Positions 13,995-26,006 of a stretch of DNA of 26,006 bases are shown in pieces. The DNA comes from a virus. Numbering within the stretch: the stretch's first letter is position 1; every line of letters starts with the position of its first letter. Under the pieces are notes generated by a model. That model ran no database searches and was not told where the DNA came from. It saw only the letters and a list, made by a program, of their open reading frames with translations. A program made the position numbers and the translations under genes. The stretch covers positions 1 to 26,006 of IMG/VR virus record IMGVR_UViG_3300023170_000153. One strand, written 5' to 3'.

Positions 13995-14027
13995 ACGGGC
14001 ACCACTAGGGTGCCCGTTGCAGTGGTG
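13995..14027 (-). promoter_or_regulatory. Possible attenuator: terminator-like hairpin with a competing alternative hairpin
   Basis: In leftward RNA, directly after the TAA of the ssDNA-binding-protein gene, CACCACT can pair with AGTGGTG (complements of 14021-14027 and 14000-14006). Alternatively ACGGGCACC pairs with GGTGCCCGT (9 bp, complements of 14009-14017 and 13995-14003; 5-base loop), followed by a pyrimidine-rich tract containing TTTCTCTTTT. The two structures share bases, so only one forms at a time. The second is terminator-like but its T-tract is interrupted. Its location in the only sizeable gap between two replication genes suggests it tunes read-through into the primase gene. The hairpins are seen directly; regulation is inferred. 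Confidence 0.5.
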
Positions 14028-14945
14028 TTAATCATCAAACTCGTCTAACAAATTAGCAAGATCAACTTGTTCCGGCGGGGTTTCCGTCTTTTTCTTAGAT
14101 TTCTTCACGGTAGGTTCCGCAACAATTTCGTCTGCTTGAACTTCCGCCCCAGCAGACTCCTCAACCGCCGGGGGTAGGGGGGAGACTGTATCATTAGTCA
14201 ACTGCTTTGTGCCAGTATCTTCTTTAGGTTTTACTGACATCGTGACTAACTTCTGTACATCCGGGTCTTTTTGTGCGTTTACCACTAGCCCTAGTTCTTC
14301 CTTGGACACCACACGCTCAGGCTTGAACAATAGCTTAGGCGTACTACTATCAGTATCAAAACGTATTTCTGTAACTATGGATGCTAAATAAGCGTTTTGA
14401 GTATTGAGCAGTTTAGCGTAGCTTTGTAGCCCCATCTTCTTCTTGTCATCACCGAACACGCTGGTAGCGGGGAGGATAAGTAGGTAGATTTCGTTGCTAC
14501 GTATCACGCCATCTTGGTCAGCCAGAAGTACCGCAATACGCTGTTGGAACCTACACGCACGGCTTTCACCCTGCCCGGAACCCTTGATATTCTGCTTGCA
14601 ATCGAAACAGGAGGCAGACTGCCTGTCAGTAACCAATACGTCCTCAGACGGTGCGCCTTTAGTAGTATCAGCAGACCAGCATTTAGGGGGATTGTTCTGT
14701 CCCGCCACGTACTGTCCTTCGTAGTAAGTCCTTGATATAGGTGAGGTTTTTACAATAACAGCTTTGAGGCTACGTTCTTCCAACTCAGCTATTTCGTTAC
14801 CGTTTACCACCTTACGAAAGACACCACCACGGATACTCAAACGGCGCATACCACCAGAGGTTGCTACGTTTTCCGGTTCTAACTGCGCCAGCAACTCCTT
14901 ATAGTCATCCGGCATGTTTTCGAACAGAGTGATTTGCGTACTCAT
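14028..14945 (-). CDS. Probable phage single-stranded DNA-binding protein with four-Cys zinc site and acidic C-terminal tail
   Basis: A 305-residue protein. The N-terminal two-thirds carry a conserved-looking core: GGMRRLSIRGGVFRKVVNG (about 31-49), RTYYEGQY, and four cysteines at C89 (PPKCW), C113 and C116 (SCFDCKQN) and C131 (ACRFQQ), a likely structural zinc site. From about residue 225 it becomes a low-complexity Lys/Thr/Glu/Pro linker and ends in LANLLDEFDD. An ordered core, flexible linker and short acidic hydrophobic tip are the layout of ssDNA-binding proteins such as SSB and T7 gp2.5, whose tips recruit replication partners. ATG overlaps the preceding HTH gene stop by 4 bases (ATGA), and the primase follows. 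The function is inferred from layout and context; no OB-fold could be confirmed by eye. Confidence 0.6.
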   Translation of the reverse strand: MSTQITLFENMPDDYKELLAQLEPENVATSGGMRRLSIRGGVFRKVVNGNEIAELEERSLKAVIVKTSPISRTYYEGQYVAGQNNPPKCWSADTTKGAPSEDVLVTDRQSASCFDCKQNIKGSGQGESRACRFQQRIAVLLADQDGVIRSNEIYLLILPATSVFGDDKKKMGLQSYAKLLNTQNAYLASIVTEIRFDTDSSTPKLLFKPERVVSKEELGLVVNAQKDPDVQKLVTMSVKPKEDTGTKQLTNDTVSPLPPAVEESAGAEVQADEIVAEPTVKKSKKKTETPPEQVDLANLLDEFDD

Positions 14946-15247
14946 ATATCTTCGTCCTCGTTAAAATCTAGTTCTAATTGTTCTGTGATACCCTCGTCCT
15001 CGGATTCAAAAAGTTCTTCCTCAAAGGACTGAACAATATCGTTTATGTGTGTTGGCACTTCTTCCTGTGGTACGGGTTCTTGCTTTAATCCCGCAACTAC
15101 ACTAGGGATATTAAAACGGTAGGTACTGCCAACCTTGATATAGCCAGTCTTGGCTATGTAGCCTTTCTGCACCCAAGTGCGCACGGTACTTACCTTTACC
15201 GATAGATACTTGGCTAGTTCGTCTATCGGGACATAGGTGTCGCTCAT
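14942..15247 (-). CDS. Excisionase/MerR-type helix-turn-helix protein with acidic tail
   Basis: A 101-residue protein. Residues about 4-52 (YVPIDELAKYLSVKVSTVRTW, then VQKGYIAKTGYIKVGSTYRF) match the short winged-helix HTH of the excisionase/MerR-like DNA-binding family (HTH_17). Its remaining half is strongly acidic and ends LELDFNEDEDI. Both ends are coupled by 4-bp ATGA overlaps, to the Gam-like gene upstream and the probable ssDNA-binding gene downstream. It could be a transcription regulator of this operon or an accessory DNA-architecture factor. No integrase is present, so an excisionase role is not supported. Confidence 0.75.
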   Translation of the reverse strand: MSDTYVPIDELAKYLSVKVSTVRTWVQKGYIAKTGYIKVGSTYRFNIPSVVAGLKQEPVPQEEVPTHINDIVQSFEEELFESEDEGITEQLELDFNEDEDI

Positions 15248-15645
15248 TTTTTTCTCCTTACGGTTACGGTGTATTCGCTATCGACATTCAATCCGGGCGG
15301 TAGCAAATCTGGGTTTTCCTCAAGGAACAGACGCATATTACCTTGATGGATACGTTTCTCCATTAGGTCTACCGCGTCATGTTCGATAATAAACTTACCC
15401 ATAGCCTCCCAATCGCCCGTCCAGTATTTAGTTTTGGTAGAGCGATAAAAGGTACCATGTTCGGTGCGCACTGATTCCACATTGTTTTCTTTGCAATGTG
15501 CTAGTAACGCGTCGTTTACTACCTTGAGTTTAGTATCTAGTTCGGCCAACTTAGCATTTAACTCGTTGGTCAACTGTGCTTTTTTGTCACGTATTTTTAA
15601 GTATACAGCGACAATGCGGTTAAGGTCTGCTTTTACATCAGACAT
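15244..15645 (-). CDS. Small coiled-coil phage protein, Gam-like (possible host-nuclease inhibitor)
   Basis: A 133-residue protein starting at 15645 behind GGAGG with an 8-base spacer. Residues about 5-50 are an amphipathic Leu/Lys/Ala/Glu helix (coiled coil). They are followed by EHGTFYRSTKTKYWTGDWEAM and a C-terminal part with FLEENPDLLPPGLNVDSEY and a basic tip. A long N-terminal helix followed by a small Tyr/Trp-rich domain recalls phage Gam-type proteins that bind DNA ends or inhibit host exonucleases. The position between an SNF2 helicase and an ssDNA-binding protein fits a recombination or DNA-protection role. The family match is from pattern memory only; siphovirus Gp157-like proteins have a similar shape. 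Confidence 0.6.
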   Translation of the reverse strand: MSDVKADLNRIVAVYLKIRDKKAQLTNELNAKLAELDTKLKVVNDALLAHCKENNVESVRTEHGTFYRSTKTKYWTGDWEAMGKFIIEHDAVDLMEKRIHQGNMRLFLEENPDLLPPGLNVDSEYTVTVRRKK

Positions 15646-15696
15646 TTCATCATCCTCCGGGCTTATTATGTTTTGTGTAATATAGTGGAGTATTAT

Positions 15697-17247
15697 TTAT
15701 AATTCAAGTACATCGTTATATAAATCTATCATTTTTGTATGTACATCTATTCTGTCGTCCAGAAGGCTATAGATTCGCTTCTCAACGCCGGAACCTTGTA
15801 ATTGCACCACGGTACAGGGGTGCTTCTGACCTGACCTGTGAACGCGTGCATTCGCTTGTGCGTAAGTCTCTAGTGAGGATACCGGCCCCCACCATACAAT
15901 CGTATTCGCCGCTGTTAGTGTTACCCCATGAGCCGCCGCTTGTGGTTGGATAATCAGGACTCGTGGGTCTTGTTCTTCTTGGAATCGTTTGAATATCTCG
16001 GTACGTTTTTGTGCAGACACATCCCCACGAATCAAATCACTCGTGATCCCATCTCTAGTTAATTTTTCTTTAAGTAAATCAATGACATGCTTGAACGGCA
16101 CAAAAATAAGAATCTTCTGGCTGGACTCGTCTATGACTTCCCGCAGTACCTTGTAGCGGTTCTTGATGTCAAACTCCACTGTCTCTCCAGTGTCGGTGTA
16201 GACGGCACCGCAAGATATTTGTAGCAACTTGTTCATAACAACAGCAGCGTTAGCTGCCGTTATCTGTTCTCCCGCAGCTACGGAAATCATCTCTTTCTTT
16301 AACTCGTTGTAGTATTTCTTTTGCTGGGTGGTAAGTTCTACCTCACGCTTGGCATAGGTCATTTCCGGTAGGTCGAGGCATTGCTCCTTGGTAAAACGTA
16401 TCGCTGGCTGTAGCGCATTAAACACAACTTCTATGGCGGTTGGTTTCGGCACCCATTTGAATTGGGTAACCTTGTACATCACCATCTCTCGGAACGCCCC
16501 GAAAAATCTAGGTACAGCTTTGGGGTTTACAAGTTTGGCTAACCCGTACGCGTCTACGGGGGATTGAGCCGCCGGTGTACCGGTCATCATCCAGAGCCAG
16601 ATGTTGGGGTTTGTATTGAGAATATAATTAAGTATCTTCCAGCGTTTCGATTGCGCGTTTTTATAGTGGGTAGCTTCGTCAACAATGATAAGGTCGAACC
16701 CGCCGTTTGCTATCTCGTCCTTTACTATCTCCACACCATCGTAGTTTATGATTACGTATTCTGCACTTCCGTTTATTATCTCTTGGCGTTTAGTCCGTGA
16801 ACCATACGCTATGTCTACGGTACGGTGCATGGCAAAGTTAAACAGGTCAGCCCTCCATGCGGAATCCATAATAGATAACGGGCAGATAATCAGGACTCGG
16901 TTAATCTTACCCTCGTTAAGCAAGAAGTCAGATGCCCAGATAGCAGAACCCGTTTTCCCAGTTCCCTGCTCGTTGAAACAGAAAGCCCGTGAATTCATAG
17001 TAAGGAAAGACGCGGTTGTTCTTTGATGGTCGAACGGTGCGTACCTTCCGGGCCAAGCATATTTACCCAGTATTGGCGACGGTACGTTGCGTATATTCAG
17101 GTTGTTTAGAACGCGGGACTCGTCTATACCCCACTTAACTAGAACACTGTTGTCACCTAAATACTTACTGTTGGGTATAGCCATTGTTATTTTTTGAGGG
17201 TCACGAACCCGCAGGAGCAACCCCCTGTTGTCTACTACTTTCATCAT
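15697..17247 (-). CDS. SNF2-family DEAD/DEAH-type ATPase/helicase
   Basis: A 516-residue superfamily 2 ATPase. Motifs in order: a Q-type FDHQRTT (72-78), Walker A EQGTGKT (93-99), Walker B VDEATH (189-194), motif III MTGTPAAQSP (221-230), and near the C-terminus the SNF2-type motif VI ANARVHRSGQ, where the arginines act as fingers. This is the compact phage form without chromatin-reader domains. Such enzymes probably remodel or translocate on DNA during phage replication and recombination. ATG 17247 (or 17244) follows AAGGAAG. It lies between a small basic protein and the Gam-like gene in a co-directional operon. The assignment to the SNF2 family is firm; the exact substrate is unknown. Confidence 0.92.
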   Translation of the reverse strand: MMKVVDNRGLLLRVRDPQKITMAIPNSKYLGDNSVLVKWGIDESRVLNNLNIRNVPSPILGKYAWPGRYAPFDHQRTTASFLTMNSRAFCFNEQGTGKTGSAIWASDFLLNEGKINRVLIICPLSIMDSAWRADLFNFAMHRTVDIAYGSRTKRQEIINGSAEYVIINYDGVEIVKDEIANGGFDLIIVDEATHYKNAQSKRWKILNYILNTNPNIWLWMMTGTPAAQSPVDAYGLAKLVNPKAVPRFFGAFREMVMYKVTQFKWVPKPTAIEVVFNALQPAIRFTKEQCLDLPEMTYAKREVELTTQQKKYYNELKKEMISVAAGEQITAANAAVVMNKLLQISCGAVYTDTGETVEFDIKNRYKVLREVIDESSQKILIFVPFKHVIDLLKEKLTRDGITSDLIRGDVSAQKRTEIFKRFQEEQDPRVLIIQPQAAAHGVTLTAANTIVWWGPVSSLETYAQANARVHRSGQKHPCTVVQLQGSGVEKRIYSLLDDRIDVHTKMIDLYNDVLEL

Positions 17248-17259
17248 TCTTCCTTTTGG

Positions 17260-17583
17260 CTAGGATTTCTTCTTTTTACTACGTTCGCGTTTGCTAGTTT
17301 CTGAAACTAATTTGCCTTGCGAATCTCTACGGAAAGAACGGTTACTGGACTTGCTTTGTATCTTTACACCGTCAGCGTTCTTACCGCCGTTGCTCAATGC
17401 TTTCTTGTGTGACACATCCTTGCCTTCGCGTTTGTCAGCTTTACCGTTTTTGTTCCGGTCTACGCCATCCTTATCTATAGCGCGTCTAGCACGTTGGCGT
17501 TCCATGCGGTCTGGATGTTCACCACGTTCTTTCTGCTGTTGGTATTCTTTTTTGTACGGTCTGGGTTTGTTTTTGTACGGCAT
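17260..17583 (-). CDS. Small very basic protein with HNH-like pattern
   Basis: A 107-residue protein rich in Lys and Arg with no hydrophobic core of note. After a basic N-terminus (YKNKPRPYKKEYQQQ) it has RARRAIDKDG, GKADKREGKDVSH, then ALSNGGKNADG and SSNRSFRRDS. The spacing of His, Asn and a final Asn-Arg is reminiscent of a reduced HNH/treble-clef nuclease, but metal-binding Cys pairs are absent. A nucleic-acid-binding protein is the safe reading. Its ATG shares one base with the stop of the nuclease gene upstream (TAATG), implying coupled translation, and the SNF2 gene follows after 12 bases. An HNH function is a hypothesis only. Confidence 0.6.
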   Translation of the reverse strand: MPYKNKPRPYKKEYQQQKERGEHPDRMERQRARRAIDKDGVDRNKNGKADKREGKDVSHKKALSNGGKNADGVKIQSKSSNRSFRRDSQGKLVSETSKRERSKKKKS

Positions 17584-18269
17584 TATCGTCTCCCGTTATG
17601 TGGGCACTCCAACACAATGCAATGAGCGCGGCAAAGCCCCGTGGGGCGTGGATTCCATACATCATTCTCGTAGGATTTCTCCATCTTGCCGTACTCCATT
17701 AGCCATTTCTGCCAAAGTGCCGGTTCTTGTTGTACTTCGTATGTTTCTTTTATAAACGCGTTACAGACGACAAACAATAGGCCGCCTTTTACTGTGTGTA
17801 TTTCTGGGAAGTGTTTGAATATAGCCAACGCCATAAGTTCAAGCTGTCCCTTGTCTGCATACTTCGCAGACTTGCCGGTCTTGTAGTCAATCACCCTAGC
17901 TATACCGGATTCTCTGTCCAGTATGGCTAAGTCAACTACACCCCTAAACCAAACATTACTATCAAAGAAACCGCATGGGTCGAGGTTAGCTGTAAGCCCC
18001 ATTTTGTGTTCACACAGTTTCTCACCTTTCATGCCTTTGAGCCGGTTCAATGCGCCCTCGGCATACTCAAAGCGTGGGTCTAAGCTATCAACGACGCCTT
18101 TGACATATTCTTCGGCGGCTTTGTGAAACTCGTTTCCATAAAGTATCGCTTCGGTTTCAAAATTTTCTTCGTAATCTTTCGCAACTTTTAAGTGGTAGTA
18201 TTTTTTCGGGCATTGGTCAAACGTCTTTATACTACTGAAAGACCAAGCTGGTTTTGTCGTGGTACCCAT
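17583..18269 (-). CDS. PD-(D/E)XK nuclease of the RecB/Cas4 type with four-cysteine (possible Fe-S) arrangement
   Basis: A 228-residue exonuclease-family protein. RecB-type motifs appear in order: FSSIKTFDQCPKKY (11-24), GNEFHKA with H49, RGVVDLA with D113, VIDYKTGK with D128 and K130, and QLELMALAIF with Q142, the full catalytic set. One Cys near the N-terminus (C20) and three at the C-terminus (C213, C217, C222, in LCRAHC and LECPHN) reproduce the 1+3 layout that binds a 4Fe-4S cluster in Cas4 and AddB. It begins inside the 3' end of the polymerase gene (43-base overlap). Likely role: phage recombination or end-processing exonuclease working with the neighbouring polymerase and SNF2 ATPase. 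No Cas1/Cas2 is present, so CRISPR adaptation is not supported. Confidence 0.88.
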   Translation of the reverse strand: MGTTTKPAWSFSSIKTFDQCPKKYYHLKVAKDYEENFETEAILYGNEFHKAAEEYVKGVVDSLDPRFEYAEGALNRLKGMKGEKLCEHKMGLTANLDPCGFFDSNVWFRGVVDLAILDRESGIARVIDYKTGKSAKYADKGQLELMALAIFKHFPEIHTVKGGLLFVVCNAFIKETYEVQQEPALWQKWLMEYGKMEKSYENDVWNPRPTGLCRAHCIVLECPHNGRR

Positions 18270-20101
18270 TTCTTACAATTCCCGTAGTCCTTACCAACTT
18301 CCACGTCACCACGAACGGGGAGTCCTTTAGCCCATTCCGGTACGTACGCCATGCACTCGCTAACGTAGCTTGCGGCTTCGTCAACCTCGGAGTCATTGAC
18401 ACAGCATACCACAGAATCATGTACTGTAAGTGCTATAGGGTATCTTTTAGATATACGCAACATCTGCTCTGCCATCACGCAACGTGCTATGGCTTGGCAC
18501 ACATTCTCTATAACCTTGCCACCATATATTTTCACTCGGCCTAGACGGGTCTTGTAAGTAAACTGAAGTCCCTTTTCTTCTTCCTCCCCTTTTAAGTCCT
18601 CGTACCGCATGAGTAGGCCAGATGGTAACTTTATAGCAACATGTTCGTGTAACACCTTTAACACGCCCGGCCTGCCGAACGCTAAACTTTCGCCCATATC
18701 CATACCGACAAGAGAAGCCTGTGCATCACGCCATAACTGAGTAATCTGACCGTTGGCCTCGCGGTACACTCGGATGATACGGCGACATTCTTCTTCGTCC
18801 ACATCTACACCAAACGTCTTTAGCTGGTCGCGGAATCGTGCCGCACCCATACCGTATCCTGCACCTAGTATAGTAGTCTTACCAATGAAGCGTTCGCTGT
18901 CGGTAACAAGTTCCTCTTTCTTGTTGTATATAATAGAAGCCATCTTCTTATACACATCTTCGCCTTTCTCAAACGACTTCACTAGGTTGTTCTGCTCGGC
19001 TAACCACGCTAGGACACGCGCTTCAATCTGCGCTGAGTCTGATTCAATTAAAGTATATCCTTCGGGCGCGACTATGCAGGATTTGAGTACCTTCGCGTTC
19101 TCACCACGGGAGGGTAAGTTCTGTAGATTCACCTTGTCCGCACCACCCCACCGTCCGGTATGAGCCGCGTAGTAACGGATAGGCACAGGTAGTTTGCCAC
19201 GAATAGCTATGTCTATAAATCTTTCAGTACGCGTTTCCTCAAGTGTACTTTTTAATCCTATGCGAGCCGCGACTAAAGCCTGTACTTTCGGGTTCTCGTG
19301 CTCTTGTAGTTCCTTGAACGCTTCGTCATTCTTGGCTAGGGCGTACGTTTCCTTACCAGTGCGCAATGATACTTTGGTCGGGGGTTCTACCCCCAGTGCG
19401 CGGAGGGCTTCGGCAAACTTAGGGTTAGACATAAGTTCGTCTTTCGTAATATGACATTCTTCCAGCAGTCGGTCTTTTGCGGATTTAAGTGTATAGAGGT
19501 GTTCGTTTAATTTAATTAAGTCAAGCTCAAGCTGCGGATTAGTGTACATCTTCAACGTCATATCTATGACTTTGACTTCTTTCATTGGGAATCCGTTGTT
19601 CATAAATATGTTGAACAATCGGTGAGTAAGTTCGACATCGTTGACACAGTAGTCACCGTATCGGGCAAGTTCTTCGGGGGAGAAATCGGCACGGCGTTTC
19701 CCCAACGCATTTATTACCTCGTTGCCTTTTTCACCCACCCCATATATCTCGCTAACTTTACGCAGAGATGCAGACACTTCGACACCATGCGTCCCCCTAG
19801 CCATACACATAGTATCAAGCCATAACTTAGGACGTATGCCAAAAAGCCAACTGAGAATAGCACCATCGAACATAGTGTTATGAGCCAGTACCGCAGACTC
19901 CGCCCAATCGTAGTTATTATGTAAATAAGTTTTGATAGCATTGAAGTCTCCACTGAGCCATATAGATTCTCCATCGTTTAGTTTTACACCAACACCTATT
20001 ACTTCAAACCTAGGACTACGTATGTATTCCTCTGTTGTTATCTTCGACAAACTAAAATCTTTATCGTAGTACGTTTCAAAATCTATTGTTATTAAATTCA
20101 T
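18227..20101 (-). CDS. Family A DNA polymerase with 3'-5' exonuclease domain (Leu at the 762-equivalent position)
   Basis: This is the phage replicative DNA polymerase, 624 residues from ATG 20101. That start gives a 4-bp ATGA overlap with the preceding gene and has AAAGG seven bases upstream. A longer in-frame start at 20134 would sit inside the preceding gene. The 3'-5' exonuclease is complete: IDFETYYD (D7, E9), LAHNTMFDG (D79) and YCVND (Y151, D155). Polymerase motif A is ESDSAQIEARVLA (D355). Motif B is RFIGKTTILGAGYG, with R404, K408 and L412 where E. coli Pol I has F762. Motif C is TVHDSVV (H561, D562), with Ser replacing the usual Glu. There is no 5'-3' exonuclease domain. In viral PolA surveys, Leu at 762 is a common environmental form proposed to correlate with slower or temperate-like replication; that link is not proven here. 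Confidence 0.95.
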   Translation of the reverse strand: MNLITIDFETYYDKDFSLSKITTEEYIRSPRFEVIGVGVKLNDGESIWLSGDFNAIKTYLHNNYDWAESAVLAHNTMFDGAILSWLFGIRPKLWLDTMCMARGTHGVEVSASLRKVSEIYGVGEKGNEVINALGKRRADFSPEELARYGDYCVNDVELTHRLFNIFMNNGFPMKEVKVIDMTLKMYTNPQLELDLIKLNEHLYTLKSAKDRLLEECHITKDELMSNPKFAEALRALGVEPPTKVSLRTGKETYALAKNDEAFKELQEHENPKVQALVAARIGLKSTLEETRTERFIDIAIRGKLPVPIRYYAAHTGRWGGADKVNLQNLPSRGENAKVLKSCIVAPEGYTLIESDSAQIEARVLAWLAEQNNLVKSFEKGEDVYKKMASIIYNKKEELVTDSERFIGKTTILGAGYGMGAARFRDQLKTFGVDVDEEECRRIIRVYREANGQITQLWRDAQASLVGMDMGESLAFGRPGVLKVLHEHVAIKLPSGLLMRYEDLKGEEEEKGLQFTYKTRLGRVKIYGGKVIENVCQAIARCVMAEQMLRISKRYPIALTVHDSVVCCVNDSEVDEAASYVSECMAYVPEWAKGLPVRGDVEVGKDYGNCKKWVPRQNQLGLSVV

Positions 20102-20430
20102 ACGTAAACCTTTGTAATTAAATACTTTCCCCATGCGTCACAATCTCTTTCCCACTCTGGGCTGTCCACAGGGTACTCACGAAACCAATCACCGACTTCT
20201 ACTTCGTCGTCTGGGTCAGTATCCCATCCCCCCTCTTCTGTAGCGTCAGCGTAATGTATATAAGGCACACAAAAACTCATAGTTCGGTCTGCGGGTAGTT
20301 TAATTACATCAACAGAAAAGGGGTCACCAAACTCGTCTATGTTGTGGAATATATCGTCCCATGTACGCCCTTCAACAAATCCTACCCATGCTTTATCGCC
20401 TTCAGGTTTAAATCTAAACAGTACTCTCAT
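20098..20430 (-). CDS. Acidic hypothetical protein directly upstream of the DNA polymerase
   Basis: A 110-residue protein with a good start: AAGGAG six bases before ATG 20430. It is rich in Asp, Glu, Trp and Tyr (WDDIFHNIDEFGDPF, then WDTDPDDEVEVGDWF) and begins with MRVLFRFKPEGDKAWVGF, suggesting a compact beta-rich domain. It is coupled to the polymerase by a 4-bp ATGA overlap and is the first gene after the bidirectional terminator, so it opens a new transcription unit or is reached by read-through. I do not recognise the family. Its acidic character could suit a DNA-mimic or polymerase partner, but that is speculation. Confidence 0.75.
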   Translation of the reverse strand: MRVLFRFKPEGDKAWVGFVEGRTWDDIFHNIDEFGDPFSVDVIKLPADRTMSFCVPYIHYADATEEGGWDTDPDDEVEVGDWFREYPVDSPEWERDCDAWGKYLITKVYV

Positions 20431-20455
20431 GTCATTCTCCTTTTACATTTTACTG

Positions 20456-20484
20456 TTGACATCTCCGCTAGTAAGTAATATATT
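20456..20484 (+). promoter_or_regulatory. Near-consensus sigma70 promoter on the + strand, driving a short RNA
   Basis: TTGACA at 20456-20461 and TATATT at 20479-20484 are separated by exactly 17 bases: a perfect -35 and a 5/6 -10. It lies in the only gap between two leftward operons and points rightward, against all nearby genes. The expected start is about 20491-20493. No coding frame follows before the terminator at 20528-20556. On the opposite strand no comparable promoter for the polymerase operon was found. Confidence 0.75.
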
Positions 20485-20491
20485 TTGTTTT

Positions 20492-20556
20492 GAGGAACCA
20501 GGATTTCTGTCTCCAGATGTTCTGACTAAAAACCCCAGCTTCGGTTGGGGTTTTTT
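20492..20556 (+). ncRNA. Candidate phage small RNA of about 65 nt (promoter, stem-loop, UUCG terminator)
   Basis: From the predicted start the RNA has a short unpaired 5' leader (GAGGAAC). A stem-loop follows: 20499-20509 pairs with 20514-20524 around a TCTC loop (11 positions: eight Watson-Crick, two G-U, one mismatch). After a 3-base linker comes a 12-position terminator stem (20528-20539 with 20544-20555, one G-U) capped by TTCG closed by a C-G pair and followed by a T-run through 20556. The C(UUCG)G tetraloop is exceptionally stable only in + strand RNA, which argues the structure evolved for this direction. The only ATG (20516-20518 area) reads Met-Phe-stop. The target is unknown; the RNA is antisense to any leader of the 110-residue/polymerase mRNA extending this far and to the 3' end of the hydrolase mRNA. 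Confidence 0.6.
20528..20555. terminator. Strong bidirectional intrinsic terminator
   Basis: AAAAACCCCAGC and GTTGGGGTTTTT form a 12-position stem with one G-U pair and a TTCG loop. T-runs follow the stem on both strands. On the - strand it ends the cell-wall-hydrolase transcript: the TAA of that gene (20555-20557) overlaps the stem. On the + strand it ends the candidate small RNA. It separates the upstream small-gene/lysis unit from the polymerase operon. Confidence 0.9.
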
Positions 20557-20959
20557 ATTGCCTGTAAAAAACATGGTTGTTTACTTGTGTTGTTATGTTC
20601 ATCGGTAAACTCCATGCCGGATTTACCCACGTTGTGTGGTAGTGTGTTGCGCCGTTAGTCGGGTCTGAAAACCAGCCCATGTACACTATGCTTGCGTATA
20701 TAAACGCGTTGCCCCACGCCTCATGGTTCGCCACTACTTCGGGTTTACCATCACACCAGAAACTAAACTGGCACTGATGCCTTAGAGGAACGTGTTTCCA
20801 GTACCGCCCCTGTTTAACTACCGCACATACGGAATCGGGGTAGCTATCGCTTTCTACGCGGTTCATTACTACGTGGGCTACTGCCATCTGCCCCAGCGGG
20901 GGTTCCCCCCTCGCCTCGAAGTACACCGCCATCGTCAGGCACATTATCGCTTCTAGCAT
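20555..20959 (-). CDS. SleB/CwlJ-family cell wall hydrolase (probable endolysin)
   Basis: A 134-residue peptidoglycan hydrolase. ATG 20959 has GGAGG seven bases upstream. Almost the whole protein is the SleB domain: MAVYFEARGEPPLGQMAVAH with the presumed catalytic Glu in FEARGE, then VVMNRVESDSYPDSVC, CQFSFWCDG, and the C-terminal THYHTTWVNPAW and HVFYRQ. The family cleaves peptidoglycan; in phages it serves as an endolysin or virion lysin. There is no signal peptide or membrane segment, so a holin elsewhere would be needed for export. It is placed among replication-side genes rather than with structural genes. Its first 116 bases are also read in another frame by the zinc-ribbon gene, and its stop sits in the terminator stem. 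Confidence 0.9.
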   Translation of the reverse strand: MLEAIMCLTMAVYFEARGEPPLGQMAVAHVVMNRVESDSYPDSVCAVVKQGRYWKHVPLRHQCQFSFWCDGKPEVVANHEAWGNAFIYASIVYMGWFSDPTNGATHYHTTWVNPAWSLPMNITTQVNNHVFYRQ

Positions 20960-21113
20960 GGCATGGCCTCCAAGTTCGTTCTCGTCCTATCGCTTTGGTG
21001 AAGCCTCTGCAATTACTACAGTACCACCCAACCCGTAGGTTTTGCTCGGCGTTGATTACCTCGGTTCTTTCCCCACCACAGTTGCAGGGTATTACTTTCA
21101 TTGAGTCAGTCAT
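20844..21113 (-). CDS. Small zinc-ribbon protein overlapping the hydrolase gene
   Basis: An 89-residue ORF (ATG 21113; an alternative ATG at 21101 gives MKVIPC). Residues about 8-40 form a zinc ribbon, PCNCGGERTEV ... GWYCSNCRGF (C-x-C and C-x2-C), similar to Lar-like/restriction-alleviation and other small phage zinc ribbons. After that the frame runs 116 bases into the hydrolase gene, and the tail is Gly/Arg/Ser/Pro low-complexity, typical of a frame shaped by the other gene. No clear Shine-Dalgarno is seen. Either the gene genuinely ends inside its neighbour, or a sequencing frameshift hides a shorter or fused protein. A role in anti-restriction is possible but unproven. Confidence 0.55.
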   Translation of the reverse strand: MTDSMKVIPCNCGGERTEVINAEQNLRVGWYCSNCRGFTKAIGRERTWRPCHARSDNVPDDGGVLRGEGGTPAGADGSSPRSNEPRRKR

Positions 21114-21148
21114 TTGGGTTTATTACTTCTAATAGTGCGTACTTAACA

Positions 21149-21679
21149 TCAGTGAAATGTGACATTATCTAATGGGTACTCGTAGTTAATAGTTTCTACA
21201 TTCGGGCTAAGTAGTATAGCCCCGTTGTTGGTGTGAAACTCCATCGCCATTCTTGTGGGGGGAGACATTGTAATAACATGCGTGACGTGTGGGAAGTTCA
21301 ATGGTATGAAGTCTAGTAACTCGTTTATAAGTCTTTTACCAGAGCCTTTCTTGTATGACCACAAACTATACGGCGTAAATATCGTAGCTAACTTATCATC
21401 ACCCACCGCTTTCATCAGTTGCTTATGCATCTCTGTCGTTTGTTCTTGGCTATCACTTATATCACGCAGGAGTTCTTCAGACTGTAATACAAACGGACTG
21501 ATTACAGCACACAAGACAGCGTTTACTACACGCTGTCCTGTATCCTCGTTAATGTCTATATCCGCAAACACATAGAAGTTATTTTCAAAACGCGTTATGT
21601 CATTCTCAAATAAATGTGGCCGCACTGGGTCATCTTTTATGTATTGTAGATACGTTTCTGGGTCACAAATCGTCAACAT
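21149..21679 (-). CDS. Probable GNAT-like acyltransferase
   Basis: A 176-residue protein. The middle has beta-strand-like hydrophobic stretches (NFYVFADIDIN and VVNAVLCAVISPFVLQ). Then KKGSGKRLINELLDFI resembles the acetyl-CoA-binding loop and helix of GNAT enzymes. The end, RMAMEFHTNNGAILL followed by an N-Y-E-Y-P-L strand, matches the C-terminal GNAT helix-strand pattern seen in small phage acetyltransferase-like proteins. It starts 16 bases inside the preceding small gene, implying coupling. The substrate is unknown; phage GNATs may modify host proteins or toxins. The classification rests on pattern similarity, not a complete motif set, so moderate confidence only. Confidence 0.6.
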   Translation of the reverse strand: MLTICDPETYLQYIKDDPVRPHLFENDITRFENNFYVFADIDINEDTGQRVVNAVLCAVISPFVLQSEELLRDISDSQEQTTEMHKQLMKAVGDDKLATIFTPYSLWSYKKGSGKRLINELLDFIPLNFPHVTHVITMSPPTRMAMEFHTNNGAILLSPNVETINYEYPLDNVTFH

Positions 21680-21908
21680 CTAAAAACCCCCACACGCCAT
21701 AAGTTCCGTCACCTTGTTTACGTATTGCTACCTTAGTAAACCCATGAGTTTTCAATGCGTTTGCAAGAGAATTAGCGTTCGTCATGGTCGGTACAAAGAC
21801 GCAATCACCGGACTGCATCTTCAGGGCTTTGCTTTTCCATCTACCTGACTGCCCCGTTGCCTTTTCGGGTAAAGGTATGTTTGTATGTATTGGATATTCT
21901 TCATTCAT
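21663..21908 (-). CDS. Small conserved phage protein, unknown function (paralogue of the gene at 10922-11143)
   Basis: From ATG 21908 (MNEEYPIH) the protein has 81 residues. An in-frame ATG at 21935 would add nine mostly Lys/Met residues that overlap the acidic end of the preceding gene, so the shorter form is preferred. Its C-terminal two-thirds read MQSGDCVFVPT, a helix with Leu/Ala, then VAIRKQGDGTYGVWGFL. This repeats the layout of the 73-residue protein at the other end of the block (GTSIFIPT ... GKYGVRVWRL). No function is known. It overlaps the GNAT-like gene by 17 bases. Confidence 0.68.
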   Translation of the reverse strand: MNEEYPIHTNIPLPEKATGQSGRWKSKALKMQSGDCVFVPTMTNANSLANALKTHGFTKVAIRKQGDGTYGVWGFLDVDDL

Positions 21909-21912
21909 CTTC

Positions 21913-22125
21913 TTAATCTTCTTCATCTTCTTCATCTCCTGTTGAACCTATTGCACTTAATTGTATGCACGTACCGTTCATGCTTACATTTAATACTTCT
22001 TCCGTTATACCAAAACCACCGCAATCATATAACACTAGAATCTTAGACTTGTTTAACTCTATTAGCGTAGCAAGGTCGCTAGTTGTAAGTTCATTTGCTA
22101 CTGCTATAAGTTGTTTCTTCTCCAT
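21913..22125 (-). CDS. Small acidic-tailed hypothetical protein
   Basis: A 70-residue protein from ATG 22125 (MEKKQLIAVANEL), which has AAGGAG nine bases upstream. The in-frame ATG at 22158 lies inside the preceding gene with no such site. A helical N-terminus (residues 1-28) is followed by a short hydrophobic strand (KILVLYDCGGFGITEEV) and a final Asp/Glu run (GDEEDEED). It overlaps the 50-residue gene upstream by 35 bases in another frame and ends 4 bases before the next start. No family is recognised. Confidence 0.65.
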   Translation of the reverse strand: MEKKQLIAVANELTTSDLATLIELNKSKILVLYDCGGFGITEEVLNVSMNGTCIQLSAIGSTGDEEDEED

Positions 22126-22243
22126 ACTTCTTGTCTCCTTCATTGAGTTCGTGCTCAAACCAGTCCTCTAGCCTCTGCTCCGGAGTGCCGTAAGTCTCAT
22201 CGTAATCACGTTGCTGTTCTGCTATATCTACTGGGTCACGCAT
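22091..22243 (-). CDS. Very small acidic hypothetical protein (50 residues)
   Basis: ATG 22243 to TGA 22091 encodes 50 residues beginning MRDPVDIAEQQRDYDETYG and continuing with EQRLEDWFEHEL. It fills the gap between the ribbon-helix-helix gene and the next gene. CAGGAG lies 8 bases upstream of the ATG, inside the last codons of the previous gene, whose stop overlaps this start by 8 bases. The composition (charged, helical, one Trp) is that of a real small phage protein rather than a chance ORF. Function unknown. Confidence 0.62.
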   Translation of the reverse strand: MRDPVDIAEQQRDYDETYGTPEQRLEDWFEHELNEGDKKYGEETTYSSSK

Positions 22244-22454
22244 GTTCATTCTCCTGCGGGGTGAGCCTTTTTTTCACTTCTTCAAAGCGTTCACGCAGGT
22301 ACTCAGGGTTATCCAGTGCATAACGTATCTCTTGCTGGGCTTCTTCGTAGTGCTCCTGTAGTACTCTGCGTATGTACTCAGATTTATTTGGCGTACTGGC
22401 GTAGAACCTATCTGCTTCTTTGCTTATGCGTACGCTGATATGTACAGTTCCCAT
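22236..22454 (-). CDS. Ribbon-helix-helix (Arc/MetJ-like) DNA-binding protein
   Basis: A 72-residue protein. ATG 22454 has AGGAG six bases upstream and lies two bases after the preceding stop. A short strand with alternating residues (TVHISVRISKEADRFY), followed by NKSEYIRRVLQEHYEEA, matches the ribbon-helix-helix fold, in which the paired strand contacts the DNA groove and the Ser/Glu-Tyr helix forms the dimer core. The charged helical C-terminus (about residues 40-70) may be an oligomerisation tail. It is likely a small transcription regulator of the phage early region. Its operator is not identified. Confidence 0.7.
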   Translation of the reverse strand: MGTVHISVRISKEADRFYASTPNKSEYIRRVLQEHYEEAQQEIRYALDNPEYLRERFEEVKKRLTPQENEHA

Positions 22455-22456
22455 AG

Positions 22457-22708
22457 TTACTCCTCTTCATAAATATGCTCAACGGTCTTTGCAAAGCAGA
22501 CCATGAGTGTCGTGGCAGAAATGCCTACCTGCTTCGCCATAATTGCAGTAATAATCGCCAGATGTTCCATCACATCAACCAAAAGAATATCCTTATCGTC
22601 TAGGGCTGAATCCAGCGCATTAGCAATCACTTCAAACAAATCTCCGGTAGTTTCGTTTCCTTTTCCCTCAACGGCTTTCTTAAACTGAACGATGTTATCT
22701 TTTTTCAC
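22457..22708 (-). CDS. Small helical hypothetical protein
   Basis: An 83-residue protein beginning MKKDNIVQFKKAVEG. The rest is three or four predicted helices (DLFEVIANALDSALDDKD, then LLVDVMEHLAIITAIMAKQ, then TTLMVCFAKTVEHIYEEE), amphipathic rather than membrane-spanning. Similar short helical proteins accompany early genes of aquatic phages, with no known function. It overlaps the previous small gene by 14 bases and precedes the ribbon-helix-helix gene by 2 bases, so all three are probably one transcript. Confidence 0.68.
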   Translation of the reverse strand: MKKDNIVQFKKAVEGKGNETTGDLFEVIANALDSALDDKDILLVDVMEHLAIITAIMAKQVGISATTLMVCFAKTVEHIYEEE

Positions 22709-22853
22709 GTTTCATCTCCTTAATACGTTTCTTGTAAGTAGCAGTCGGCTCCATAAAACTACGGCTACTGTAGGTTGTTGGGGTTATTGTTACTATTGTT
22801 CTTTCTTTGAAGTCGGGTTCTGGGGCACGAACACCGTGTGGTTTGCTTTTCAT
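22695..22853 (-). CDS. Very small basic hypothetical protein (52 residues)
   Basis: Three consecutive in-frame ATGs occur at 22859, 22856 and 22853. GGAG at 22864-22861 is best spaced (7 bases) for the last, giving MKSKPHGVRAPEPDF... and a basic end (KKRIKEMKREKR). The frame stays open further upstream to 23015, but that extension would translate the GC-rich hairpins and reads as low-plausibility sequence, so it is excluded. No domain is visible. Placed first after the structured intergenic region, it may be subject to control by that region. Confidence 0.55.
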   Translation of the reverse strand: MKSKPHGVRAPEPDFKERTIVTITPTTYSSRSFMEPTATYKKRIKEMKREKR

Positions 22854-23077
22854 CATCATTCTCCGTACTTGTTTATATATTATGTTTGCCTTGTGGGGGT
22901 AGCGGGAGTAGGCGAGAGAGCCACCCCCACAAGGACTAGCCGTAGCGTGGCTTCCCCGGTATGCACCCGGATAGGAGGACAATAACTCGCATGAGATTAC
23001 GTCACGTTCCGTCACATACAGCCGGTGTTTTTACATGACAGCCCACCTCCGGCTGGGACCGCCTAGGTTATGTGCGA
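22854..23077. other. GC-rich structured intergenic region without a gene
   Basis: This 224-base gap is the longest non-coding stretch among the leftward genes and is visibly more GC-rich than its surroundings. It holds a long inverted repeat (22889-22934), a 7-bp inverted repeat (CAGCCGG at 23019-23025 with CCGGCTG at 23049-23055), a 4-bp stem with 7-base loop (AGCC/GGCT around 22937-22952), and CCGCCTAGG at 23059-23067, repeated at 23087-23095 inside the end of the VRR-NUC gene. No tRNA T-loop, terminator T-run or consensus promoter was found. It may be a structured RNA leader, an RNase III processing region or a replication origin. Confidence 0.55.
22889..22934. repeat. 12-bp perfect inverted repeat forming a strong hairpin
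   Basis: CCTTGTGGGGGT (22889-22900) is the exact reverse complement of ACCCCCACAAGG (22923-22934). The stem can extend by two more pairs after one A-C mismatch, leaving a 16-base purine-rich loop on the + strand. Neither strand has a T-run after it, so it is not an intrinsic terminator. In leftward RNA it lies about 36 bases before the start of the 52-residue gene. Confidence 0.8.
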
Positions 23078-23395
23078 CTATGCACCCCGCCTAGGACGGG
23101 CTAGTAGACTTTCTAATGCTACTTTTACGCTGTCTACATTGGACTCATTAACTACCCAAGCGACACCGCCGGATTCGTTTATTTTTTTAATTTCAAAGTC
23201 TTGCAGTTTAGTTGTGGTGTTGCTCCCTGCCTTACATTCAATCGCAAAGAACATACCTTTATAACAGCCTACTATGTCCGGCACACCACTACGTCCATAA
23301 CCACCGGTTGCCGGAAAGAAATAGTATATGTCCTTTCCGTATTCTTTCAAGTATTTTACTACTTTTTCCTTTACTTTTTTCTCAGGGGTTGTCAC
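23078..23395 (-). CDS. VRR-NUC family nuclease (PD-(D/E)XK fold, Holliday-junction-resolvase-like)
   Basis: A 105-residue single-domain nuclease. GTG 23395 is chosen because AGGAGG lies 7 bases upstream and it gives a 4-bp GTGA overlap with the preceding gene. An in-frame ATG at 23425 would add ten residues inside that gene. Core motifs: an N-terminal helix with KKVKEKVVKYL (E10), then RSGVPDIVG (D40), AIECKAG (E53, K55) and LQDFEI (Q65), then a GGVAWVV strand. VRR-NUC proteins act as structure-specific nucleases, and in phages often as resolvase-like enzymes during replication or packaging. The C-terminal codons lie in the start of a GC-rich structured region. Confidence 0.88.
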   Translation of the reverse strand: MTTPEKKVKEKVVKYLKEYGKDIYYFFPATGGYGRSGVPDIVGCYKGMFFAIECKAGSNTTTKLQDFEIKKINESGGVAWVVNESNVDSVKVALESLLARPRRGA

Positions 23396-23655
23396 AAAGC
23401 GTCCTCCTCTGGGCAAAATACCCAATACACGTTGTTGTCAATGCGCCTACCGATACCAGTTACTACATCGGTTGGAGGTTCTGGTGACATACTCGATAGT
23501 ACAGCGATACGTTTTTGTATCCACATCGGTAAGTCATTTACTTCGTAGTACCTATCTACATTCGGCATATCTCCTGTTATTTCAAATTGGTCTACTCTTG
23601 CGTACCCGTTCGTAAACTCTACTCTGTAATAAGGTTCGTCACGCGTCATGGTCAT
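23392..23655 (-). CDS. Hypothetical small phage protein
   Basis: An 87-residue protein (ATG 23655, alternative ATG 23649 giving MTRDEPYY) that overlaps the end of the 327-residue gene by 17 bases and the nuclease start by 4. It opens with a strand-rich YYRVEFTNGYARVDQFEITG, then DLPMWIQKRIAVL, and ends acidic with VFCPEEDAL. No domain is recognised. The overlaps make it very likely to be translated. Confidence 0.65.
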   Translation of the reverse strand: MTMTRDEPYYRVEFTNGYARVDQFEITGDMPNVDRYYEVNDLPMWIQKRIAVLSSMSPEPPTDVVTGIGRRIDNNVYWVFCPEEDAL

Positions 23656-24622
23656 ACTTTGTTCCTTGGTTGATTAACTTCTGTACTACATCCTCCACCT
23701 CATCCTCACTTATAAACAACGCGTAATGCGTGTCGGTCAGTAAGTCATTGGCTTGTGATGCCATAAAACCTGCGTCACAATCGTGCCCCTCCACTATGTT
23801 CACTGTGTGTATGTGCCTCTGTACTGCTTGCGGTAATGCTTCGATACTCGGTACTTGCACAAACCATGCCTCCGTTTCCCACGTGCCTACCCCTTTTGAA
23901 TACCCTAGATATAACTTATCTTTAAGTTGTGCTACATGTAAGATAACACGTTTACCTAAGTCGTTTATTGTATTTGCTAGTTCGTTTGCTGTTTTTACAC
24001 ACTCTCTGTATTTTTGTACGATAGAATTACCTTCCGACAATGTAACCACATACTTACCATCCATAGCATTTATTGTCTGTTCAATAAACTCAAATAGAAT
24101 ATTGCGTTTGTCTTTTTTCTCATCCCCCCAGTTACTACCGCAAATTTCATCCGTAAAATTATCCCTGCATTTTGAAAAATTGGTTTGGTTGCGTACTAAC
24201 TTAGGTCTTGCACAACGTTCTACATTTTTAATTGAAATGCCGACTAACTCGGTATCTGTTATGGGCGCAAGTCTGCTTATTGTATTAGCCGCTTTTCCTA
24301 AGTTTGTTGTACTCACGGTGTGGTAACTGTCTCTACCCATATGATACTTTGCACGGTCACAATCAATACGGAATGATTTTATTACGTACTGCCGTTTCGA
24401 TTCTTTAGTCGTGTAGCAAACTCTGCATATAAGATAGTCTGAATTTTTGTGGGTTATTCCTACGTGGTCACCTAAATCATAATACTTAAACCGATTCCTA
24501 TACTTTTTATCTAACGCTTTTATTAGTTCGTCATGGTCTGGTATGTGCCCAAGGAATATCTCTCGGCTTGGTAAGGCATATTTAATTAAGTCGTCACGGG
24601 TTGGTTTAGTATTAAAGCGCAT
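23639..24622 (-). CDS. Hypothetical phage protein of 327 residues
   Basis: ATG 24622 has AGGAG seven bases upstream, a clear start. The protein is mixed alpha/beta, with Cys and His scattered through the middle (YLICRVCYTTKESKRQYVI and IKNVERCARPKLVRNQ) but no clear paired zinc motif. Its C-terminal third is acidic, with an FISEDEVEDVVQKLINQG helix. No catalytic signature or known family was recognised. It sits between the HExxH/VWA gene (11 bases away) and small genes, in a co-directional unit that looks like an early or middle region. Confidence 0.75.
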   Translation of the reverse strand: MRFNTKPTRDDLIKYALPSREIFLGHIPDHDELIKALDKKYRNRFKYYDLGDHVGITHKNSDYLICRVCYTTKESKRQYVIKSFRIDCDRAKYHMGRDSYHTVSTTNLGKAANTISRLAPITDTELVGISIKNVERCARPKLVRNQTNFSKCRDNFTDEICGSNWGDEKKDKRNILFEFIEQTINAMDGKYVVTLSEGNSIVQKYRECVKTANELANTINDLGKRVILHVAQLKDKLYLGYSKGVGTWETEAWFVQVPSIEALPQAVQRHIHTVNIVEGHDCDAGFMASQANDLLTDTHYALFISEDEVEDVVQKLINQGTKYDHDA

Positions 24623-24633
24623 GATTTGTCTCC

Positions 24634-25821
24634 TTATATGTTTATGTCAACGCGTTTGCCTACAGTTGGATTCGCGTCTTTGTTATCAAGAATGCACCAG
24701 AGCAATGGCATAGACCACGTACCCCAGTCACCACCTAAGTACCCATCAGTCAATACCACAACGGCTTCGGCTTTGATGTTCTTTTCACGTATGTAATTGC
24801 ACACACAGTTCACATCAGTACCGCCACCACCTTGTGGTTTAGTTGACCTAACAAGTTCGTCTATTGGTCTGTGTGTACCACCATACTGTTCGTCACCTAC
24901 TACCTCATGCCCCCAGTACAGCAGTCGTACACCGGATGGTTTGACCACATCACAGATAGATTTGACCTCGGTAAGAAACGCACTAAGTTGCCTATCACCA
25001 ACACTACCACTCGTATCTACTGCAATAACAAGTTCACCTACCTGTTCGCTTATTGTGCTTGGCATGTACACACCGTGAGACATGTACCTACGGTTGGGTC
25101 TGTTGTATGTGCTGTAGTCTTTACCCATACACGTTGATGTAAGAAACTCACGCAGTATCTCACGCCAATCTACCTGTGGTTGTAGTAATTCCTTCATACC
25201 TCTCGGCACGTCTGCACCCATCTTACCGGCAGTCAACGCACCCTGTCGTATGGCAGAGTCAATGTCCTGTTCAAGTTCACGTTTCTCGGCTTCGGACATT
25301 TCCTGTGCGCTCTCCCAATCGTGTTCGTCAATGGAACCCCCACTGCCACCACTACCAGAACCACCTTCGCCACCTTGTTCCTCATATATTATGTTGAACA
25401 CGTCCTGAGAGTTCTTACCTTTGAACCGTTTGTCAATCAACGCACCGTGGGGTAGTACAGCAAACCCGTCTGGATTCTCGTCAATAATCTCCAGATTGAT
25501 AACGTAGTCACACGCCATGTTCGCGCACTGCGCATCTATCTCCCATAAGTTACGCCACGTAGTAAGGTGTCTGTATAACTTGTGCTTACACTCGTGGAGT
25601 ATTATCCCTCTGAGTTCGGCATCGGTAAGACTATCCACAAACTTCCTACCATACTTAACGTCACGTCCGTTGGTACATGCAGTTGGTATGTCGTCCGATA
25701 CCTCACTCTTACCCATGATGAGAACACCGGCTAATGCGATATACCTCCGGCTGTTCATTATTGCGATAGTCTCACGCTGTACGCGTTGCTCCGCTGTCAG
25801 TTGTAAATTTATTGCTAACAT
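24634..25821 (-). CDS. VWA domain protein with N-terminal HExxH metallopeptidase-like domain (DUF2201-like)
   Basis: A 395-residue protein starting behind AGGAG (9-base spacer). The N-terminal domain (about 1-145) has GIILHECKHKLYRHL with H76-E77 and H80, a zincin-type zinc site, followed by DAQCANMACDYVINLEI, as in the predicted metallopeptidases called DUF2201. A Gly/Ser linker (about 150-163) and an acidic helix follow. The C-terminal VWA-like domain has a complete metal-ion-dependent adhesion site: DTSGS (269-273), GGGGTD (T335) and LTDGY (D359). In bacteria such proteins usually pair with a MoxR-type AAA+ ATPase encoded next door. The adjacent upstream gene is cut off by the window and its visible end is not diagnostic. 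In phages the biological target is unknown; protein remodelling or host-protein processing is inference. Confidence 0.85.
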   Translation of the reverse strand: MLAINLQLTAEQRVQRETIAIMNSRRYIALAGVLIMGKSEVSDDIPTACTNGRDVKYGRKFVDSLTDAELRGIILHECKHKLYRHLTTWRNLWEIDAQCANMACDYVINLEIIDENPDGFAVLPHGALIDKRFKGKNSQDVFNIIYEEQGGEGGSGSGGSGGSIDEHDWESAQEMSEAEKRELEQDIDSAIRQGALTAGKMGADVPRGMKELLQPQVDWREILREFLTSTCMGKDYSTYNRPNRRYMSHGVYMPSTISEQVGELVIAVDTSGSVGDRQLSAFLTEVKSICDVVKPSGVRLLYWGHEVVGDEQYGGTHRPIDELVRSTKPQGGGGTDVNCVCNYIREKNIKAEAVVVLTDGYLGGDWGTWSMPLLWCILDNKDANPTVGKRVDINI

Positions 25822-25843
25822 GTTTGCCTACTCCTGTTAGTTG

Positions 25844-26006
25844 TTAAACGCTAATTGCGTAGTTGTTTGCAAGACACCACTCTTGGTATTCCTTGGTGTT
25901 GACCACTATGTCACGCTTACTGTAGTCCTTAACGCGTACGCCGTTGACAAACAAACCCTGCGTTTCTTTGGGTAACCTGTTCAGGTAAACCATCCACGGT
26001 TTGATA
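25844..26006 (-). CDS. C-terminal end of an unidentified protein (5' truncated by the window edge)
   Basis: The - strand frame is open from the right edge to TAA at 25844-25846, giving the last 53 residues: an aromatic/basic stretch (IKPWMVYLNRLPKET), then LFVNGVRVKDYSKRD and a helical end with EYQEWCLANN. Its stop lies 22 bases before the VWA gene start. By analogy with bacterial loci this could be the MoxR-type AAA+ partner of the VWA protein, but no ATPase motif falls within the visible part, so it stays unassigned. Confidence 0.6.
   Translation of the reverse strand, partial: IKPWMVYLNRLPKETQGLFVNGVRVKDYSKRDIVVNTKEYQEWCLANNYAISV

Follow-up and report, generated by a model that had tools for sequence, protein, structure and literature searches.

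The window analysed here (IMGVR_UViG_3300023170_000153, a 26006-base IMG/VR virus record, taken whole) contains a compact unit on the + strand that looks like a small-RNA gene. The unit has a promoter, a predicted RNA of about 65 nt, and a terminator (Table 1). We put the probability at roughly 60% that it is an autonomous sRNA gene with a sigma-70 promoter and a two-hairpin RNA, that it is mobile, and that its product is most likely an early riboregulator that acts in trans. We read the unit as an sRNA gene because its sequence, conservation, and folding support this, and it probably encodes a real regulatory RNA.

Table 1. Features of the unit and its surroundings (coordinates in the window), and contigs that carry the other versions of the unit
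Feature	Position or contig	Strand	Remarks
-35 hexamer TTGACA	20456..20461	+	invariant in 5/5 versions
-10 hexamer TATATT, 17-bp spacer	20479..20484	+	invariant in 5/5 versions
Predicted small RNA, ~65 nt	20492..20556	+	folding, shuffles; 131 bits with model R1 (the window is one of the 5 sequences R1 was built from)
Hairpin 1	20499..20524	+	stem 20499-20509 with 20514-20524, loop 20510-20513, one U-U mismatch
Intrinsic terminator	20528..20556	+	12-bp stem, UUCG loop, U run
110-aa ORF	20098..20430	-	without Pfam or PHROG match
Endolysin (Cell Wall Hydrolase, PF07486)	20555..20959	-	Pfam match; converges on the unit
Version B	L115 (= L007) and L106		L106 contig breaks off in the terminator
Version C	L103 (= L008) and L117 (= L009)		
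Version D	L217		
Version E	L225		

A sequence-only reading of this DNA had described a TTGACA-17-TATATT promoter followed by a C(UUCG)G intrinsic terminator, and both are at the positions it gave. The distance from the -10 hexamer to the terminator is 43 nt. The arms of the terminator (20528-20539 and 20544-20555) enclose a TTCG loop, and its T run covers 20551-20556. We infer that the RNA starts at about 20492 (7-9 nt past the -10 hexamer). Two successive stem-loops had been proposed, and the predicted fold of 20491-20557 agrees: it forms two successive hairpins with an energy of -27.5 kcal/mol (z = -3.98; 0 of 200 shuffles were as good). The loop had also been described as super-stable, which holds for the C(UUCG)G on the + strand of the window but not for version E, where the closing pair gives U(UUCG)A.

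The unit was said to lie in a gap within a block of genes on the opposite strand, and this is correct (the gap is 20431-20554, with - strand genes on both sides). The adjoining gene is the 110-aa ORF and not the polymerase. Beyond this ORF are a family-A polymerase, a PD-(D/E)XK nuclease, and an SNF2 helicase. (Among the best 20 of 2700 records in a phage collection, the top relatives of the helicase, at about 40% identity, are from Pseudomonas phage Rollin and Rhizobium phages.) On the other side, the stop codon of the endolysin (20555-20557) sits in the unit's terminator. It is plausible that this hairpin also ends the converging endolysin gene, as a weaker terminator for that direction.

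We rejected a coding function for the unit. As the sequence-only reading had claimed, the RNA has no usable ORF: on either strand, no frame runs through the whole unit without a stop in all five of the versions that we found. The + frame that starts at the -35 hexamer is uninterrupted across the unit in the window and E and is stopped in B, C, and D. An 89-aa + frame (20339-20608) also spans the unit, but it begins before the promoter and is interrupted in B, C, and D. The - frame that begins in the end of the endolysin gene is open in the window and in B, mostly open in C, and stopped in E; in D, no - strand frame is open through the unit. Since the frames are broken in different versions, no protein explains all five. 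The start codons within the RNA are an AUG that is soon stopped (AUG-UUC-UGA), as well as UUG codons close to its 3' end, which are not followed by a stop before the RNA ends.

The unit in the window is more than chance. The site at 20456-20484 is the sole 11-of-12 promoter match within 14000-26006. Promoter-like sites in that region are not above expectation (14 found versus 21.1 expected), so only the quality of this site stands out. A simple terminator scan omits the unit's terminator, presumably because the stem uses up the T run; other scans and folding detect it, also in the relatives. Joined promoter-terminator units were present in 1 of 150 dinucleotide-shuffled windows at loose thresholds and in 0 of 150 at strict thresholds. 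In 1.47 Mb of loci, a scan of the reversed sequence gave one unit at loose thresholds. With repeats removed, the forward scan gave the window, version C (twice, with two promoter matches), three units of the type in L055 (described below), and two unrelated units, in L099 and L101. Across 163 related loci, five had a strong terminator opposite a matched gene: C, B, L030, L031, and L055. In C, B, and L055, a promoter with 11 or 12 matches lies 42-49 nt upstream of the terminator. L030 and L031 have nearly the same hairpin, near the end of the locus, with little upstream DNA that could be scored. (Within L055, the unit and the genes beside it share a strand.)

The L055 unit (L055:1224-1335, - strand) is a separate one, and it also occurs in L056, L057, and L066; the four contigs are 3300006345_000365, 3300006413_000057, 3300030108_002400, and 3300037847_002729. 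It has a 12-of-12 promoter (TTGACA-18-TATAAT), an RNA of about 75 nt, and a strong terminator, and in L055 it lies about 250 nt upstream of terS. In sequence, it does not look related to the unit of the window. We rejected the terS-linked units of L055, L057, and L066 as homologues: they scored 25.8-29.2 bits with model R1, and two of the three were misaligned at the promoter.

We sought relatives of the window's unit by neighbouring proteins and by DNA patterns, which gave four more distinct versions (B to E); with the window, there are five sequences in seven contigs. All five keep both hexamers, the 17-bp spacing, a first hairpin, and the terminator. Loss of the hexamers in related phages had been named beforehand as a refutation, and all 12 of their columns are invariant, as compared to 8/17 in the spacer, 4/14 in the leader, 13/30 in hairpin 1 and the linker, and 19/28 in the terminator. 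Retention in five distinct versions gives good support to the central claim of the sequence-only reading, namely a candidate small RNA of a phage that has a promoter and a terminator of its own.

All five versions are predicted to fold as two hairpins on the + strand. For the full-length unit in the window, B, C, D, and E, the z scores are -4.03, -4.53, -4.02, -3.44, and -4.16 on the + strand, versus -2.24, -2.44, -2.36, -0.40, and -1.16 on the - strand. For hairpin 1 alone, the P values on the + strand are 0.135, 0.085, 0.029, 0.126, and 0.025 (in the same order), and for version C, the - strand of hairpin 1 folds equally well (P = 0.013). In the terminator, C-G pairs have changed to U-G in C, D, and E, which preserves pairing on the + strand only, and version E has a double change from A-U to G-C. 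Sliding the pairing partners drops the pairing to 42-60%. Across the five sequences, the percentage paired was not above that of column shuffles (88.8 versus 88.4; 232 of 500 shuffles were as high). Two pairs have changed on both sides, a count that was reached by 170 of 500 shuffles and by one slid version. (These pair counts use a single register for hairpin 1, which suits B and E less well than the window, C, and D.) When hairpin 1 of the window was compared to that of B, a substitution test was not significant (P = 0.19-0.32). Loss of compensatory changes had also been named beforehand as a refutation, and on this point the comparison is only weakly informative.

Model R1, which was built from the five versions, gives 96.5-131 bits on its own members. 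In searches of related viral records, strong matches were found in 2/50, 0/50, 1/50, and 1/50 records, or 4 of 199 distinct records (one record was in two batches). These four are versions that were already in the model, so R1 added no member. The other matches were two weak ones in the first batch and a terminator-only match in each of the third and fourth. The unit's family is rare among these 199 records. Absence from these records is weak evidence, since many of them are fragments. We rejected conservation of the unit throughout the clade: in a scan of the regions upstream of terS at 80 loci (each up to 900 nt, with candidates below 8 left out and version E straddling the 900-nt limit), no unit had a promoter score above 9.

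Hairpin 1 varies in a different way from its surroundings. The window and B are identical across the spacer (17/17) and the terminator (28/28), but they agree at only 18/29 positions of hairpin 1. From the -35 hexamer to the start of the endolysin gene, they differ at 12/29 positions in the hairpin-1 stretch as compared to 37/475 elsewhere (P = 2.8e-6, with the caveats that this stretch was picked after the alignment had been seen and that the differences also cluster at a second place, within the endolysin gene). Hairpin 1 agrees at 25/29 positions between the window and D and at 23/29 between B and E; the agreement is 16-17 of 29 for window-E, B-D, and D-E. Version C's hairpin 1 is closer to those of the window and D (21/28 and 20/28) than to those of B and E (17/28 and 15/28). 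In the spacer, D agrees with the window and B at 9/17 positions and E at 12/17. The simplest reading of these comparisons is that hairpin 1 was replaced or recombined between versions. Because it seems to have been exchanged between otherwise identical promoter and terminator frames, hairpin 1 is possibly the changeable part of the RNA that gives it specificity. The swapped hairpin provides a concrete hypothesis as to which part carries the specificity.

Comparing these genomes also indicates that the unit changes place and orientation among the gene ends of related phages. In the window, B, and C, it lies antisense behind the endolysin gene, while in D and E it is in the sense orientation in the small-gene/terS region. 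In B, the endolysin is 92% identical to the window's, the genome is rearranged, and the polymerase is 50% identical and lies upstream. In D, the unit is directly behind a gene for a 138-aa protein and upstream of terS (so called because it matches genes annotated as small terminase subunits). At the corresponding site in the related L225, there is just a plain UUCG terminator, and version E is one gene further upstream. L006 and L010 have an endolysin and a polymerase that are 98% and 99% identical to the window's, and in these contigs the endolysin gene runs directly into the polymerase gene, with neither the unit nor the 110-aa ORF. Occurrence in both orientations and absence from close relatives suggest that the unit is an accessory gene, that it is mobile, and that its product most likely works in trans. 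We propose only tentatively that the unit moves between operon ends, in either orientation, as an RNA accessory gene whose specificity is changed by swapping the hairpin within a fixed frame of promoter and terminator.

The 110-aa ORF, which is acidic, accompanies the unit in the window and in C and was not found in the stretch of B's contig; its location appears to be a site for accessory genes. The contigs of L001, L002, L003, and L106 break off within or beside the unit and this ORF, as expected if the site varies within populations.

In the mechanism that we favour, a host-type sigma-70 promoter would drive the predicted RNA early, and the RNA would act in trans (we infer both the use of the promoter and its timing). 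Hairpin 1 and the flanking single strands would contact an RNA (or RNA-binding) target. The terminator hairpin and the U tail would give stability and might bind Hfq. We prefer an autonomous trans-acting gene to a cis-acting leader because the unit changes its place and orientation. A search by duplex energy against translation starts in the five phage contigs (26 ORFs in the window, 14 in B, 16 in C, 7 in D, and 6 in E) gave no significant, repeated target. The best duplexes were at background or close to it: the RNA of D with terS reached -25.1, as compared to a 5% limit of -25.0, and this was not repeated in E.

The sequence-only reading had suggested cis control of the polymerase-operon leader as one of two options. 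This one is disfavoured: in B the polymerase is upstream and the 110-aa ORF does not follow, D and E are not antisense to an apparent neighbour, and L006 and L010 do without the unit. Since D and E are in the sense orientation elsewhere, the unit is not a by-product of one leader. We also think it unlikely that the unit is a cis antisense element, in which the RNA or its transcription would control read-through from the opposing endolysin gene into the 110-aa ORF and the polymerase, as in lambda's OOP. The antisense location in the window, B, and C, with a terminator shared with the endolysin gene, would fit, and there is a precedent in PAK_P4as15, an antisense RNA of about 550 nt that acts in cis on a phage endolysin gene (PMC12197685). 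Like PAK_P4as15, the window's RNA is opposite an endolysin gene, but its length is about 65 nt, and it reaches only to the end of that gene, so that it overlaps the coding region at the stop codon only. Furthermore, there is no apparent opposing gene for the unit to overlap in D and E, and neither the 110-aa ORF nor the polymerase follows the unit in B.

A trans-acting RNA might also be a decoy or mimic that binds a host protein (a defence nuclease, a CRISPR effector, or Hfq), in which case hairpin 1 would track the host protein. The exchange of hairpin 1 inside a conserved promoter/terminator frame is consistent with this, and RNA anti-CRISPRs (Racrs) are small non-coding RNAs that are encoded by phages (PMC10651486). 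But unlike the Racrs, the unit has no similarity to CRISPR repeats in Rfam: no repeat family matches 20400-20600 at E values of up to 5, so we rejected a CRISPR-repeat mimic. No other mimicry was seen, and we consider a decoy improbable. That the unit is just a mobile terminator seems very unlikely to us. In that case, the promoter would be fortuitous or idle, the hairpin would end the neighbouring operon, and the short transcript would have no role. In each of the five versions, the unit does follow the end of one gene and precede the next, in D it stands where L225 has a plain UUCG terminator, and the same TTTTTTATTGCC tail is seen on a hairpin terminator of an unrelated genome. However, the hexamers and their spacing are invariant although the spacer sequence varies, a first hairpin forms in every version, and the + strand folds better even where the neighbouring gene is on the other strand. 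We rejected two other ideas as well. A replication primer or origin does not fit the GC skew, which has no switch at 20.5 kb, or the relatives without the unit. An ATTGCC tail past the terminator (in the window, B, C, and E) might have been a trace of the end of an endolysin gene, but the tail also follows an unrelated terminator, so we dropped this reading.

The window had no Rfam matches at the gathering threshold. Below the threshold, the region resembles several generic sRNA families, and the best hit was to Pseudomon-1/ErsA (29.1 bits versus a threshold of 50; E = 0.00036 for 201 bases). In INPHARED, there was no match to the 2 kb around the unit. The unit itself (131 bases) was matched partially by 54 records, none of which covered 80%, and the best 20 of these 54 all matched the terminator-bearing 3' part. 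We also scanned 84,980 species genomes with two patterns. One scan found nothing, and the 3 matches of the other were judged on reading to be chance. When R1 was run on 289 genomes of one class, the single match (44 bits) was to the 3' end of a small gene with a generic terminator. We rejected a host origin, as these scans of bacterial genomes gave only matches judged to be chance or a generic terminator.

Lambda's OOP RNA is about 77 nt, ends at the terminator tO, and is encoded beside the replication gene O. OOP has a promoter of its own, is encoded opposite phage genes, and is antisense to cII (PMC12197685). Going by that description, the window's unit is similar in being a small RNA from its own (predicted) promoter, opposite to phage genes; it differs in that it overlaps a stop codon only and that D and E are in the sense orientation. 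Trans-acting phage sRNAs include PreS from lambda (about 88 nt) and VpdS from VP882 (about 50 nt) (PMC12197685). Going by their published descriptions, the unit's RNA is in the same size class and presumably also acts in trans. In the literature that we searched non-exhaustively, including the sections of PMC12197685 cited here, no sRNA is described for this group of phages. Most of the phage sRNAs named in these sections of that 2025 review are from phages of cultured enterics, vibrios, pseudomonads, or cyanobacteria (PMC12197685). The phages that carry our unit are known here from IMG/VR contigs only, and the compact anatomy of the unit rests on comparison rather than expression. A phage-encoded sRNA is a known kind of gene; the apparent hopping between positions and the exchange of a hairpin are unusual.

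Two other observations concern the neighbouring regions. Directly upstream of terS, there is a non-coding stretch of some hundred bases (L225:2200-2470, L217:2470-2700, L227:400-730, and L230:2150-2500). It contains a long T run, GGCTYGGAGGCC-like and GTAACC-like pieces recur in it, and it is possibly a packaging site. And the start of the window's endolysin gene (20844-20959) overlaps an 89-aa ORF (20844-21113, - strand) in another frame. Both of these overlapping frames are matched in L006, L007, and L103.
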